Shown: in pieces, positions 15,823 through 21,454 of the stretch
How the letters are laid out: each line of letters begins with the position of its first letter
How positions within the stretch are numbered: position 1 is the first letter of the stretch
Assembly: GCF_000381965.1 (NCBI RefSeq)
Contig: NZ_KB908458.1
Coordinates: 169,563-233,562 of the forward strand
Length of the DNA stretch: 64,000 nucleotides
From: Oceanimonas smirnovii ATCC BAA-899
GTDB taxonomy: Bacteria; Pseudomonadota; Gammaproteobacteria; Enterobacterales; Aeromonadaceae
Direction: 5' to 3'
Translations under genes and position numbers: made by a program
The notes under the pieces: model-generated
Told to the model about the DNA's origin: nothing
The model's database searches: none
What the model saw: only the letters and a program-made list of their open reading frames with translations

Positions 15823-15951
15823 GCTTTCCTGTGTTGAATGACCCGCCACCAGACTAGCAAAGCTCGGTCTTCGGGTCGCCTGTTGTCGGTATTCAGACCG
15901 GCGTCAAACGGTTATGCTTACCACTTTATAAAGTATAACTCCGGAGCCAAT

Positions 15952-16341
15952 ATGTCTTATCTTGCCCTTAAGCATGCACACATGATGTTTGCCATTATCA
16001 GCATAGTGCTGTTTATGCTGAGAGCCTGGCTGGCGGTCCCCTCTCCCGCCCGCATCAACAACAAGCTGCTGAAGATTTTGCCTCATATCAACGACACCCT
16101 GCTGCTGATATTTGGCATCTGGCTGGCGGTCAGCCTTAAGTTCAACCCCCTTGAGAACAGCCCCTGGCTGGCAGCCAAAATTATTGGCCTGGTGCTCTAC
16201 ATCATAGTGGGCACCATTGCCATCAAACGCGGCAAAACCCGCGGCCAGCGCCTGATGGCTGCGCTCGCTTCCATTGCTATTTTTGCCTACATCTATGGTG
16301 CGGCAGTCACCAAATCACCACTGTCCTGGCTGGTGCTGTAA
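15952..16341 (+). CDS. SirB-family inner-membrane protein
   Basis: SirB family proteins are four-helix membrane proteins of unknown biochemical role, first noted for effects on Salmonella invasion genes. The ATG at 15952 has GGAG upstream and gives 129 residues (MSYLALKHAHMMFAIISIVLFMLRAW) with four hydrophobic segments. The C-terminal 49 bases overlap the convergent peptidase gene. The longer reading from 15838 lacks a ribosome site. Confidence 0.85.
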   Translation: MSYLALKHAHMMFAIISIVLFMLRAWLAVPSPARINNKLLKILPHINDTLLLIFGIWLAVSLKFNPLENSPWLAAKIIGLVLYIIVGTIAIKRGKTRGQRLMAALASIAIFAYIYGAAVTKSPLSWLVL

Positions 16342-17946: not shown

Positions 17947-18023
17947 GAACGTCAGGAACAGACCGAAAAACAGCAACTGTGGAAAAATGGCGACACTCGC
18001 TCATGAAAAAGGTGCGTCAAAAC

Positions 18024-18051
18024 TTGTCACACCCTGTGCCTAGGATACAAT
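18024..18051 (+). promoter_or_regulatory. promoter of the WYL-ftsZ-like unit
   Basis: TTGTCA (18024-18029) and TACAAT (18046-18051) are 16 bases apart and 25 bases before the WYL-gene start. This is the only strong promoter-like sequence noticed upstream of the pair. Confidence 0.6.
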
Positions 18052-18075
18052 CATCCCAAGCAAGAGGGCATAACC

Positions 18076-19038
18076 ATGAGTAAGAAACTGCTGAGACAAC
18101 TGACCCTGGCGCGCTGTGTTCCCTACCGTCCATACAAGCTGACCGCACGCCAGCTGCAAGAAAAACTGGAAGAAGAAGGAATTCAGGTAAGCCTGCGGAC
18201 CGTACAGCGGGATCTGGAAGAAATGTCGGGCATGGGCCTGTTTGATCTGACTTCCGATGATCGCAGCAAACCCCACGGCTGGTGTTTCGAACGCAATGGT
18301 TTGAACGACTTCGCCAACTTTATGCCGCTGGGCCTGGCCATGGCACTCAAGACCTGGAACGACCAGGCCGCCGACCTGCTGCCAGCCAGCGTGCTGACCG
18401 AACTGACGCCCATCATCGACAAGGCGACTCAGGTTATTAACGACAGCCAGAGCGAGCTCGCCGGTCGCTGGATGGAAAACGTGATACAGCTGCCCAAGCC
18501 CTTTGCCGGCAGTCCGGAAATGCGCCGCGCCACCACCATACGCGACGCCCTGTGGCGTGGCCGCAAGTTTACCGCCGAAATCAAGCGCCAGATCAAGGGC
18601 CGCACCGTGTGGCTGCGCTATGAGCAGGTTAACCCGCTGGGCATTGTCAGCCGCAAAGACGGCACCATGCTGCTGTGCACCATGACCGACATGGATCCGA
18701 AGATTTACGGCATTCCCTTTGAGCACATCAAGGATGTGGAGCTGACCAGCCGGCCGGTTACTCAGCCTCGTGAGTTCAGCACCCACAAACTGGTGCGGGA
18801 AAAAGGCTATCAGGAAGAGGCAGAAACCATTCGTTTTGTTGGCCGCATTGCCAACTCGGGCCGCCCGCTGCTGGAAGACACCATTCCGGGTCACAATCCG
18901 CGTTTGACCCGTTATGACAAGCAGAGCATGATGGTAGAAACCGATGTGAAAGATTCGCCCGAATTCCGGCGATGGCTCACCGATATGGCCGGCAAGGTAG
19001 AAATACTGGCCCCGGAATCACTGAAGTCCGCCAAATAA
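18076..19038 (+). CDS. WYL-family transcriptional regulator
   Basis: A 320-residue protein with an N-terminal winged helix-turn-helix (TARQLQEKLEEEGIQVSLRTVQRDLEEM, residues about 23-50), a linker, and a WYL-type ligand domain (PLGIVSRKDGTMLLCTM). The WYL tripeptide itself is replaced by MLL. A conserved WCX-like C-terminal domain follows. Such regulators sense nucleic acids or nucleotides and often control DNA-damage, defence or accessory genes. An intrinsic terminator and then an FtsZ-like gene follow 64 bases downstream, so it is the obvious candidate regulator of that gene. No phage-defence genes are adjacent. Confidence 0.82.
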   Translation: MSKKLLRQLTLARCVPYRPYKLTARQLQEKLEEEGIQVSLRTVQRDLEEMSGMGLFDLTSDDRSKPHGWCFERNGLNDFANFMPLGLAMALKTWNDQAADLLPASVLTELTPIIDKATQVINDSQSELAGRWMENVIQLPKPFAGSPEMRRATTIRDALWRGRKFTAEIKRQIKGRTVWLRYEQVNPLGIVSRKDGTMLLCTMTDMDPKIYGIPFEHIKDVELTSRPVTQPREFSTHKLVREKGYQEEAETIRFVGRIANSGRPLLEDTIPGHNPRLTRYDKQSMMVETDVKDSPEFRRWLTDMAGKVEILAPESLKSAK

Positions 19039-19057
19039 AGGCACCCACACCGATGAT

Positions 19058-19088
19058 AAGGGCTGACTGGTTCAGCCCTTTGTTTTTT
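19058..19088 (+). terminator. intrinsic terminator immediately before the ftsZ-like gene
   Basis: Nine-pair stem AAGGGCTGA/TCAGCCCTT with a five-base loop, then TG and six T on the plus strand. The ribosome site GGAG of the next gene begins four bases after the T-run. There is no room for a promoter between terminator and start codon. Confidence 0.85.
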
Positions 19089-19101
19089 CACGGAGACCAG
19101 G

Positions 19102-20184
19102 ATGGATCAGATCCTTTTTGAGCCCGCCGAACCCGACTGCGACACCATTCGCATCAGCGTAGTGGGTGTGGGCGGCTGTGGCGGCAACACCGTCAACCTG
19201 CTGGCCGATCATCAGTTACCGGCCCATGTCAGCACCATGGCCATGAACACAGATGCCAAGGCCCTGCAACAAAGCCGGGTAGAAATTCTGCAGCTGGGTC
19301 GTGAGCTGACCCGGGGTCTGGGTGCCGGTGCCGAAGCGGAAACCGGCCGCAAAGCCGCCGAGGAAAGTGAAGACGAGATCCGCGCCCGTCTGCAAGGCGC
19401 GGATCTGTGCTTTATTACCGCCGGCATGGGCGGTGGCACCGGCACCGGTGCCGCTCCTGTAGTGGCGCGCCTGGCCCGGGAAATGAACATAATGACGGTG
19501 GCCATCGTTACCCGTCCCTTTGGCTTTGAAGGCAAAAAGCGCGCTCAGGCGGCGGAACACGGCCTGGAAACCCTGGCCGAGCATACCGACGCCCTGCTGG
19601 TATTGCCCAATGACTATCTGCTGCGGGTACTGGGTGCCCGCACGCCACTGCTGAAGGCGTTTTCTGAGAGCAGCAAGGTCATTCAGAATGCCGTACGTGG
19701 CCTGGCCGACATCATCGGTCAGACCGGCCTGATTAACATCGACTTTGCCGATGTGCGCACCATTATGAGCCAGCAGGGCAAGGCAGTAATGGGCATTGGC
19801 CTGGCCAGTGGTGAAAACAAGGTGGAAGAAGCCACCCTGCAGGCCCTGAACAATCCGCTGCTGGAAAAAGTAGAGCTGGAGCGCGCCCGGGGCGTGCTGC
19901 TCAATGTGGTCGCCTCAGCGGATATCGGGCTGGATGATTTTCAGAAAATCGGTGATCGCGTAGCCGAAAGTGTGGGCGAAGAAGCCACTGTGGTGTCGGG
20001 TATTACCCTGGATCCGGACTTAACCGACAGCATTCAGGTCACCATGATCGCCACCGGTATTCAGCCGCCAAAAGAAACCATAGCGCCGGTGCAGCAACCT
20101 CAGCATCAGCCCGGCCAGCCAGCAGAACAGCCGCTGCAGGAAGGTCTGGATATTCCGGCGTTTCTGCGCCAGCGCCAGCAATAA
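19102..20184 (+). CDS. FtsZ homologue outside the dcw cluster (possible second FtsZ)
   Basis: Tubulin-like GTPase. The 360-residue protein has the nucleotide loop GVGGCGGN (22-29; usual FtsZ has GGGGGN), the tubulin signature GGGTGTG (110-116), the catalytic T7 loop NIDFADVR (212-219) and a short linker ending in DIPAFLRQRQQ (350-360), the peptide that binds FtsA/ZipA in standard FtsZ. All parts needed for GTP hydrolysis and polymerisation are present. The start keeps the FEP of ordinary FtsZ but the body differs in many places conserved in gammaproteobacterial FtsZ. Neighbours are a WYL regulator and gltS, not ftsQA or lpxC, so this is either a paralogue or a relocated main FtsZ. GGAG is six bases before ATG. 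Confidence 0.9.
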   Translation: MDQILFEPAEPDCDTIRISVVGVGGCGGNTVNLLADHQLPAHVSTMAMNTDAKALQQSRVEILQLGRELTRGLGAGAEAETGRKAAEESEDEIRARLQGADLCFITAGMGGGTGTGAAPVVARLAREMNIMTVAIVTRPFGFEGKKRAQAAEHGLETLAEHTDALLVLPNDYLLRVLGARTPLLKAFSESSKVIQNAVRGLADIIGQTGLINIDFADVRTIMSQQGKAVMGIGLASGENKVEEATLQALNNPLLEKVELERARGVLLNVVASADIGLDDFQKIGDRVAESVGEEATVVSGITLDPDLTDSIQVTMIATGIQPPKETIAPVQQPQHQPGQPAEQPLQEGLDIPAFLRQRQQ

Positions 20185-20194
20185 TTTCAGGTAC

Positions 20195-20229
20195 AAAAAA
20201 AGGCCGACGCAATGCACCGGCCTTTTTTA
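20195..20229. terminator. bidirectional terminator between the ftsZ-like gene and gltS
   Basis: AAAAAAAGGCCG pairs with CGGCCTTTTTT around a ten-base loop; A-run and T-run on both sides suit the convergent genes. Confidence 0.85.
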
Positions 20230-20245: not shown

Positions 20246-21454
20246 TCAGCCAAACACGTTCAGGCACCAGGTAATGGCCGGAATGGCCACGATATCGATC
20301 AGTACGGCACCACACAAAGGCGCCACAATAAAGGCCTTGTGGGAGAAAACCCGATAACGATCGCACACAGCACCCATATTGGCCACCGCATTGGGAGTGG
20401 CACCCAGACCATGCCCCACAAAGCCGGCACAAAGCACGGCAGCATCATAGTTACGGCCCATCAGCCGGAACATCACAAAGTAGGCCAGCAGAATAATGGC
20501 CAGGGTCTGCACCGCCAGAATGATCATCAGGGTTGCGCCCAAATCCGCCAGCTGCCACAGCTTCAGCGACATCATCGCCATGGTCAGAAAAATACCCAGA
20601 CAAAAATCCCCCACCAGGGTATTGGCACTGTCGGAAATGGGCAGCAGACGTATCAGCTCATTGAGATTACGAATTATGATAGCCACAAACATGGCACCCA
20701 CATAGGAGGGCAGAATCACATCAAAATGGGCGCGCAGGTTATCACTCAGCCACAGCCCCACCACCATGGTGCACAATACCAGGGTGACGCTTTTCAGCAG
20801 CAGGGTACCGGTGACGGTTTCCCGGCCGGGCTTTTCGGCCTCTTTCAGCGCTTCCAGCTCGTGTACCTGCTCCGCCTCAATGGCCACCTTGTGGCGCTTG
20901 ATCAGCAGACGGGCCACAGGCGCACCCAGCAGACCGCCGGCGACCATACCAAAGGTAGCCGCCGCCAGCGCGGCCGTAGTGGCGCCGGTTACCCCCAGCG
21001 CCTCGGCCTCGGGACCAAAAGCGGCGGCAGCGCCAAAGCCGCCTTCCAGTGATACGGCACCGGCCATCAGACCCAGCAGCGGATGCTCGCCCAATACAGA
21101 TGCCATACTGATGCCAATGGTGTTCTGCAAAATGGCCAGCACCCAGCAGGCCACCAGATACACCCCCAGCACCTTGCCGCCTTTTTTCAGCAGTGCCAGG
21201 CTGCCGCCCAGACCTACGGTGGCAAAAAATGCAATCATCAGCGGGCTTTGCAGTGCCAGATCAAACCTGAACTCCACCTGTGCCCAGTCCCGGGCCAGCC
21301 AGGCAAATACCGCAAAACCAAAACCACCAATCACAGGTGCCGGCACGCACAGCTGATGCAGCACCGGAATACGGCGTTGCAGATACATACCCAGCATCAG
21401 CAACAGCGCCGCCAGCGTGGTGGTGGTCATTACATCGAAGGTCATTACATTCAT
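20246..21454 (-). CDS. gltS: sodium/glutamate symporter GltS
   Basis: Na+-driven glutamate uptake across the inner membrane. The 402-residue protein (E. coli 401) has about ten hydrophobic segments arranged as two inverted halves, each with a Gly-rich re-entrant loop: MAGAVSLEGGFGAAAAFG and the second-half GFVGHGLGATPNAVANM. It is 39 bases downstream of hutG in the same direction, pairing glutamate production with glutamate import. Confidence 0.95.
   Translation of the reverse strand: MNVMTFDVMTTTTLAALLLMLGMYLQRRIPVLHQLCVPAPVIGGFGFAVFAWLARDWAQVEFRFDLALQSPLMIAFFATVGLGGSLALLKKGGKVLGVYLVACWVLAILQNTIGISMASVLGEHPLLGLMAGAVSLEGGFGAAAAFGPEAEALGVTGATTAALAAATFGMVAGGLLGAPVARLLIKRHKVAIEAEQVHELEALKEAEKPGRETVTGTLLLKSVTLVLCTMVVGLWLSDNLRAHFDVILPSYVGAMFVAIIIRNLNELIRLLPISDSANTLVGDFCLGIFLTMAMMSLKLWQLADLGATLMIILAVQTLAIILLAYFVMFRLMGRNYDAAVLCAGFVGHGLGATPNAVANMGAVCDRYRVFSHKAFIVAPLCGAVLIDIVAIPAITWCLNVFG

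Follow-up and report, generated by a model that had tools for sequence, protein, structure and literature searches.

A WYL-type regulator gene paired with a second ftsZ in Oceanimonas smirnovii and related bacteria: a predicted switch for a division tubulin

FtsZ is mostly regarded in the Gammaproteobacteria as the product of a single housekeeping gene. A 64,000-nucleotide stretch of the Oceanimonas smirnovii ATCC BAA-899 genome (contig NZ_KB908458.1, positions 169,563 to 233,562, called here the window, whose own numbering is used throughout) carries a second, complete ftsZ gene, called here ftsZ2, immediately behind a gene encoding a WYL-type regulator. Control of ftsZ2 by the WYL protein, which the original prediction had offered as a guess, is well supported by comparison of sequences, a conserved palindrome being present at the WYL and ftsZ2 promoters. 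We propose, with a probability of about one half, that the WYL protein, working like DriD of Caulobacter crescentus, binds this palindrome and switches on its own gene and ftsZ2, likely upon DNA damage, and that FtsZ2 would then join and alter the housekeeping ring.

The window encodes a second, complete FtsZ

The pair is organised as follows.

18076..19038, plus strand: WYL regulator gene, 320 aa (open reading frame, Pfam, PADLOC and fold match)
19058..19088 (stem 19058-19080), plus strand: intrinsic-terminator hairpin and T tract in the WYL/ftsZ2 intergene (hairpin kept in 23/23 relatives)
19091..19096, plus strand: CGGAGA, likely ribosome-binding site of ftsZ2 (GGAG conserved in 16/16 aligned rows)
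19102..20184, plus strand: ftsZ2, second complete FtsZ, 360 aa (open reading frame, Pfam, NCBIfam and motif reading)

A complete FtsZ had been predicted between a WYL regulator and gltS, and the open reading frame, the TIGR00065 and Pfam matches and the motifs agree on it. FtsZ2 scores 372.9 bits against NCBIfam TIGR00065 (cut-off 295.2), exceeds the cut-offs of both Pfam Tubulin and Pfam FtsZ_C, and carries a first loop GVGGCGGN, a T4 loop GGGTGTG, a T7 loop N-x-D-x-x-D and the tail DIPAFLRQ. The GTP-loop glycines and the N, D and D of the T7 loop are invariant in 15/15 aligned FtsZ2 sequences, and FtsZ2 is therefore expected, as a member of its family, to hydrolyse GTP and to polymerise. The C-terminal FtsA/ZipA peptide is intact in the window (DIPAFLRQ) and in locus L026, both of the genus group of the window (called here g1; named members Oceanimonas, Oceanisphaera and Zobellella). 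FtsZ2 is 97% identical to its counterpart in Oceanimonas sp. AH20CE76, 95% to that of O. baumannii, and 47% (364 aligned positions) to the FtsZ encoded in the division and cell wall (dcw) cluster of the same genome. Ratios of nonsynonymous to synonymous substitution rates within g1 (five pairs per gene) range from 0.04 to 0.14 for ftsZ2 and from 0.02 to 0.07 for the WYL gene, and both genes are under strong purifying selection. The GGCG of the first loop was dropped as a unique mark of FtsZ2, as protein P0030, dcw-like in appearance, carries it too.

The ordinary ftsZ of this genome, which the original prediction had envisaged, is located on contig C8 between ftsA and lpxC (neighbours identified by eye from translations), and relocation of the main gene is thereby ruled out. 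It is very improbable that chance gene order accounts for the pair or that the main ftsZ has moved to a new place: this would fit the annotation of the gene in public sources, where it is plainly labelled 'cell division protein FtsZ', whereas a dcw ftsZ is present in the genome and the pairing and its site recur across several genera in three gene orientations. Owing to that same label, a conserved and regulated second FtsZ has apparently escaped notice in genera as well studied as Shewanella and Pseudoalteromonas.

The WYL-ftsZ2 pair is conserved in several genera of the order

When 75 genomes of the family were searched for FtsZ, two FtsZs were found in 23/23 g1 genomes and in Dongshaea marina (G038). 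A single one was found in 37/37 genomes of group g2, which is probably Aeromonas, and in 13/14 genomes of groups g4 and g5, the remaining genome, 70% complete, having none. In the order, 394 genomes were searched and the 36 outside the family with at least two FtsZ matches were re-examined, yielding 11 genomes with a WYL-linked FtsZ2, five with an unlinked FtsZ2, one with an FtsZ2 fragment and a further 19 outside these types (12 of family f3, ten of which carry two copies separated by a few kb, two with dcw-like extras, three with split genes and two with weak matches). The 11 linked genomes comprise seven Shewanella, two of Alteromonas type (f7/g33), whose FtsZ2s resemble a named Alteromonas mediterranea protein, one of Pseudoalteromonas type, whose WYL groups with named Pseudoalteromonas WYLs, and one of family f21. 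Within Shewanella (genus g10), 7 of the 29 sampled genomes carry the linked gene.

The WYL gene lies directly 5' of ftsZ2 in 23/23 g1 loci, in Dongshaea and in 16/16 named loci, and a WYL homologue was close by in 11/20 loci fetched around second FtsZs, Dongshaea among them. The two genes are co-oriented, with WYL first, in g1, Dongshaea, Shewanella and Pseudoalteromonas; they are convergent in both Alteromonas-type loci and divergent in locus L139. The pair is thus conserved in relatives, as had been predicted: throughout g1 and in Dongshaea, Shewanella, Alteromonas-type and Pseudoalteromonas genomes. In a co-occurrence comparison of 80 genomes, the 11 strong WYL matches were those of the 11 linked genomes, a score gap that is biased in that ten of these 11 WYLs were query rows.

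In a plasmid collection, FtsZ2 was present in five Pseudoalteromonas records (replicons of 0.68-0.90 Mb, plasmid or megaplasmid), with WYL immediately 5' in 5/5, and the annotators of these Pseudoalteromonas records name the homologue a WYL protein. On these replicons (L255-L259) the pair sits in a variable region near HipA, McrC, DUF262, HNH, nuclease, recombinase or transposase genes, and four of the five have an annotated YfhL-type ferredoxin gene downstream. A phage or plasmid origin of FtsZ2 was dropped, as viral contigs gave no FtsZ2 relative by the patterns used and the plasmid records shown (the best 12-20 of 113-117) held only ordinary FtsZ or the Pseudoalteromonas copies. Among the matches listed in a class-wide FtsZ2 search, no other genome's match ranked above ordinary FtsZ, and all members of the FtsZ2 clade seen in the sampled genomes belonged to the order.

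Phylogenetic analyses are in agreement with this distribution. In an FtsZ tree of 66 rows, calculated without L146, 23 FtsZ2 rows fell on one side of a branch with support 100/97 and 22 dcw rows grouped at 96/94; the depth of FtsZ2 relative to dcw FtsZ is uncertain, the tree program having flagged the long FtsZ2 branches as a possible source of false joins. In a WYL tree of 59 rows, 17/18 linked WYLs and two g2 WYLs formed a clade (100/99) inside a wider family, the g2 rows joining the Dongshaea WYL at 98/95. Because the g2 WYLs nest with Dongshaea inside the linked clade, the simplest reading is that ftsZ2 was lost in g2. In loci L171-L182, the g2 regulator gene is kept with a perfect or near-perfect palindrome and no ftsZ2.

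A conserved palindrome is found at the WYL and ftsZ2 promoters

Alignment of the WYL promoters revealed a conserved palindrome, TGCGACA-N5-TGTCGCA, predicted to be bound by the WYL protein. The following elements were recognised upstream of the WYL gene in the window.

17990..17995, plus strand: upstream half-site GCGACA, second conserved block of the WYL promoter (kept in 31/32 aligned promoters, from g1, Dongshaea and 8 g2)
18013..18031, plus strand: predicted regulator site TGCGTCA-AAACT-TGTCACA, 12/14 to consensus with one altered base per half (WYL promoter alignment)
18041..18046, plus strand: predicted -10 element TAGGAT, 9 nt past the site (constant spacing in relatives)
18024-18029 and 18046-18051, plus strand: rival promoter TTGTCA and TACAAT (near-consensus sigma-70)

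The site at 18013..18031 is the only match scoring at least 12/14 in the 64 kb of the window. Before the WYL gene, the best palindrome score was 12-14/14 in 23/23 g1 loci, 13 in Dongshaea, at least 13 in 12/12 g2 loci and 12-14/14 in the Shewanella, Alteromonas-type and L139 loci. A second copy is located directly before ftsZ2 in 10 of the 11 distant linked loci (at least 12/14, the score being 10 in L141), the corresponding score in Dongshaea being 8. The Pseudoalteromonas records, scored after the motif had been fixed although L146, from that lineage too, was already known by then, gave 12, 12, 12, 11 and 12 of 14 before ftsZ2. Scores did not exceed 10/14 before 5/5 unlinked FtsZ2 genes and 17/17 dcw rows (two of which are the same gene). 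Across 888,527 bases of loci, 53 sites scored at least 12 and, by hand tally, 49 of them were at WYL or ftsZ2 promoters; about three would be expected by chance with equal base use, and many of the loci are close kin and not independent.

The palindrome is followed by TANNNT at +9 in 23/23, 12/12, 11/11 and 8/11 members of the promoter sets and in 5/5 Pseudoalteromonas records. In the distant promoters, where the -10 is weak and no consistent -35 is found, TANNNT at +9 is the constant element; the g1 promoters retain both this element and the TTGTCA/TACAAT promoter (23/23).

The regulator resembles DriD and is predicted to activate

The regulator is composed of a winged helix-turn-helix (residues ~1-72), a three-helix linker (85-138), a WYL domain (~160-227) and a WCX domain (~251-319). 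Only WCX exceeds the Pfam cut-off; the protein matches the PADLOC WYL model (6.9e-12) and its fold is that of WYL proteins. A fold search returned DriD as the top match (E 6.7e-12, template modelling score 0.46) and PafBC as the second, BrxR and CapW being weaker.

The position of the site, over TTGTCA as -35 with TACAAT as -10, was read at first as repression, and this reading was displaced by the constant TANNNT at +9 of the distant promoters, which is also the reason why activation is preferred here. A repressor of the BrxR or CapW kind, covering the -35 region until a signal lifts it and ftsZ2 is derepressed, is a possible but less probable explanation. It would account for the overlap of the window site with a near-consensus promoter, for the presence of class-level WYL relatives beside defence-like genes, several of them with the same palindrome, and, by analogy, for what is reported for BrxR, which recognises inverted repeats separated by 5 bp and acts as a repressor at its own promoter (PMC9122601). 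By contrast, a constant 9-nt spacing to a weak -10 with no consistent -35, as seen in the distant lineages, is what an activator needs and not a repressor, and the fold and the site core point to DriD, which is an activator, more than to BrxR or CapW. We therefore retain activation, in which the WYL protein would bind the palindrome before the -10-like element, activate its own gene and switch on ftsZ2 as well, the trigger being likely DNA damage.

In g1, ftsZ2 may be expressed by read-through of a terminator

An intrinsic terminator in front of ftsZ2 had been predicted, and the stem and T tract in the window confirm it. The hairpin, GGGCTGA-N-TC(A/G)GCCC with a T-rich tail, lies between WYL and ftsZ2 in 23/23 g1 loci, so that the copy in the window is not due to chance. 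It should be noted that a compensatory change was seen in only one hairpin pair, the support for the hairpin being its conservation, and that the predicted RNA fold of the window intergene is by itself not special (z -0.91). The stem ends 23-27 nt before the ftsZ2 start in these loci, the spacer before the hairpin being variable in length and sequence; no palindrome precedes g1 ftsZ2 in any of the 23 loci (best score 9), and synonymous conservation is not raised at the 3' end of the WYL gene. Given the scant room for a promoter after the hairpin and these last two results, the simplest interpretation is that g1 ftsZ2 is expressed by read-through of the WYL transcript; from the only site found, before WYL, FtsZ2 would be made as a fraction of that transcript, and the terminator perhaps holds it low. 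By contrast, a separate site precedes ftsZ2 in the Shewanella, Alteromonas-type and Pseudoalteromonas loci.

Evidence weighing against a dedicated DriD-like switch

Several observations weigh against the mechanism proposed here. Regarding the site, no palindrome was found at the WYL promoter in L146 (score 9) and in 5/5 Pseudoalteromonas records. The full core CGAC-N7-GTCG is present by eye in 11/12 g2 WYL, 8/11 distant WYL and 7/11 distant ftsZ2 sites; it is found at WYL in only 2/23 g1 loci, the window copy (CGTC-N7-GTCA) departing in both halves, and in 0/5 Pseudoalteromonas ftsZ2 sites. The overlap of the window site with TTGTCA-16-TACAAT (10/12 to the sigma-70 consensus) would fit a repressor equally well. 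A search of eight genomes with at most one mismatch yielded 15 sites, six at WYL promoters and nine elsewhere (a control pattern gave two); no two of these nine are apparently at the same gene, as judged by eye, and additional targets of the regulator are possible.

Regarding the ligand, the RxxR pair that binds single-stranded DNA was not found in the window regulator: in a hidden Markov model alignment, RSWR of DriD aligns to YGIP, so that the two arginines appear to be replaced by Y and P. RSWR itself is taken as the arginine pair of DriD by analogy with PafBC and SiwR, for which binding of single-stranded DNA by RxxR is described (PMC11804915, PMC10693628). Single-stranded DNA is thus doubtful as the ligand and another may be used. 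Because this pair appears to be missing, the regulator is not classed as a DriD-type member, only as working like one.

Finally, the partnership is not exclusive. FtsZ2 occurs without a linked WYL of this type in five genomes, the linked WYL of L139 falls on another branch of the WYL tree, and the FtsZ2 tail is missing from L139 and has degenerated in several of the distant rows. The WYL gene is retained without ftsZ2 in 35/37 g2 genomes (69-72% identity; one copy has internal stops), which indicates that the regulator has some further role. The wider WYL family was detected at some level in 49/369 genomes of the class, and none of the 29 loci retrieved, with flanks of up to 1.5 kb, contained an FtsZ. 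As judged by eye, restriction, DUF262, Sir2, ATPase and nuclease-like genes stand alongside in these loci (L200-L228), several of which bear the same palindrome, suggesting a broader operator family for such regulators. Since these loci hold other genes, several with the palindrome, the WYL type serves several cargoes, and it may respond to a phage-related signal or to some other nucleic-acid signal.

Possible role of FtsZ2 in division

Under the proposed mechanism, FtsZ2 would co-assemble with the main FtsZ (FtsZ1), entering or poisoning its polymers under stress, and so delay or reshape division; activation rather than repression, the DNA-damage signal, the co-assembly and the effect on division are all inferred. 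A further and more tentative proposal is that the pair constitutes a DNA-damage checkpoint of Gammaproteobacteria outside the SOS response, in which a DriD-like regulator would flood or seed the Z-ring with an inducible FtsZ, halting or rewiring division. The effector would then be a division tubulin, whereas elsewhere small inhibitors (SulA, SidA, DidA) play this part. SulA was found in 3/75 family genomes at E 0.001, two of them over the cut-off. Because it is nearly absent from the family, a division brake other than SulA is plausible; FtsZ2 as a stand-in for SulA was rejected, since SulA is rare family-wide with or without FtsZ2.

The main rival regarding FtsZ2 itself, which we consider rather unlikely, is that it acts as a spare division tubulin when the main FtsZ is blocked, for instance by a phage- or stress-made inhibitor. 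The intact GTPase loops, together with the tail kept in the window and L026, are compatible with such a role, as are the five Pseudoalteromonas records with the pair near DUF262, McrC, HipA, HNH, nuclease or recombinase genes and the statement that WYL regulators often guard defence genes (PMC9122601). However, the g1 pair is a fixed locus (23/23 genomes), SulA, one such inhibitor, is as rare as reported above, and among the four window proteins scanned PADLOC matches WYL alone.

Comparison with known systems

The closest known system is the DNA-damage checkpoint of C. crescentus formed by DriD and DidA, in which DriD, a WYL activator, acts on the division inhibitor DidA (PMC4211646); the DriD site is ATACGAC-N7-GTCGTAT over the -35. 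The two systems share the order winged helix-turn-helix, three-helix bundle, WYL and WCX, with DriD as the best fold match; the site core CGAC-N7-GTCG, which most of the g2 and Shewanella copies carry; a site that overlaps the -35 and keeps a fixed spacing to the -10, the comparison covering overlap and constancy of spacing; and a target in division, a division inhibitor for DriD and a division tubulin for the present pair. They differ in that the target here is a second FtsZ and not a small inhibitor, that the core is degenerate in the genus of the window and in Pseudoalteromonas, and that the arginine pair for single-stranded DNA is apparently lost.

PafBC of mycobacteria, the second best fold match, is likewise a WYL-WCX activator of the DNA-damage response, described as reprogramming RNA polymerase at its promoters (PMC11804915, PMC10693628); it differs in being a heterodimer with a large regulon and in requiring arginines that are not conserved in the window regulator. 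BrxR and CapW share the WYL fold and, in the case of BrxR, inverted-repeat operators; unlike the present regulator, they are phage-defence repressors, with a weaker fold match, and the scanned neighbours in the window are non-defence.

Archaea and chloroplasts also hold two FtsZs per cell (FtsZ1/FtsZ2). To our knowledge, those pairs serve housekeeping functions and lack a WYL regulator.

In the open-licence full texts searched, no description was found of a WYL-ftsZ2 pair or of a second FtsZ of this kind in Gammaproteobacteria. If the proposed mechanism is true, this would apparently be the first division tubulin known to be switched by a WYL protein, gene control in the manner of DriD would extend beyond Caulobacter, cells would have an extra route to adjust division, and the pair would offer a tractable two-FtsZ system for studying how two FtsZ types share one ring.

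Neighbouring genes and additional observations

The genes closest to the pair in the window encode a peptidase M14, SirB, GltS and an arginase. Neither a neighbourhood of the BrxR/CapW phage-defence style among these nearest neighbours nor any PADLOC match other than WYL itself among the four proteins scanned was found.

15838..16341, plus strand: SirB-family gene, whose homologue is just upstream of WYL in 12/12 g2 loci (marks the common gene order where ftsZ2 is absent)
20195..20228, strand not assigned: inverted repeat with A and T tracts in the ftsZ2/gltS intergene, likely a shared terminator (by eye)
20246..21454, minus strand: gltS, facing ftsZ2 and outside the module (many relatives lack it next to ftsZ2)

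In the window, a peptidase gene sits between the SirB and WYL genes. A second WYL regulator, 28% identical, is encoded on contig C8 of the same genome (L183, 8454-9395), about 25 kb from the dcw ftsZ. Two palindromes away from the pair were seen in g1 genomes. One, with a single mismatch (L189, 1501-1519; G052:C1:1041967) and among the nine sites found away from WYL promoters, precedes an unrelated gene by 44 nt and the second WYL-family gene of that genome by about 2.5 kb. The other, a perfect copy (L190, 1501-1519), is downstream of a gene that we take to be BrxL-like from its appearance.

Other FtsZ duplications or anomalies were also encountered. In one g1 genome the dcw ftsZ is split over two frames (G053:C18:29346-30301), by a frameshift or an assembly error. 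In an Alteromonas-type genome, a 571-aa frame gives a distant FtsZ-like match, the third there (L168, G265:C88:46389-47117). Genomes G363 (L132, L133) and G193 (L142, L143) each encode two dcw-like FtsZs with a GGGGGN loop and gave no WYL homologue by tblastn, those of G193 being about 140 kb apart on a single contig. In family f3, locus L149 (8258-10898) holds two distinct tandem ftsZ genes flanked by ftsA and lpxC, of which the first has a GGCGC loop, and a further nine f3 genomes have paired FtsZ matches a few kb apart.

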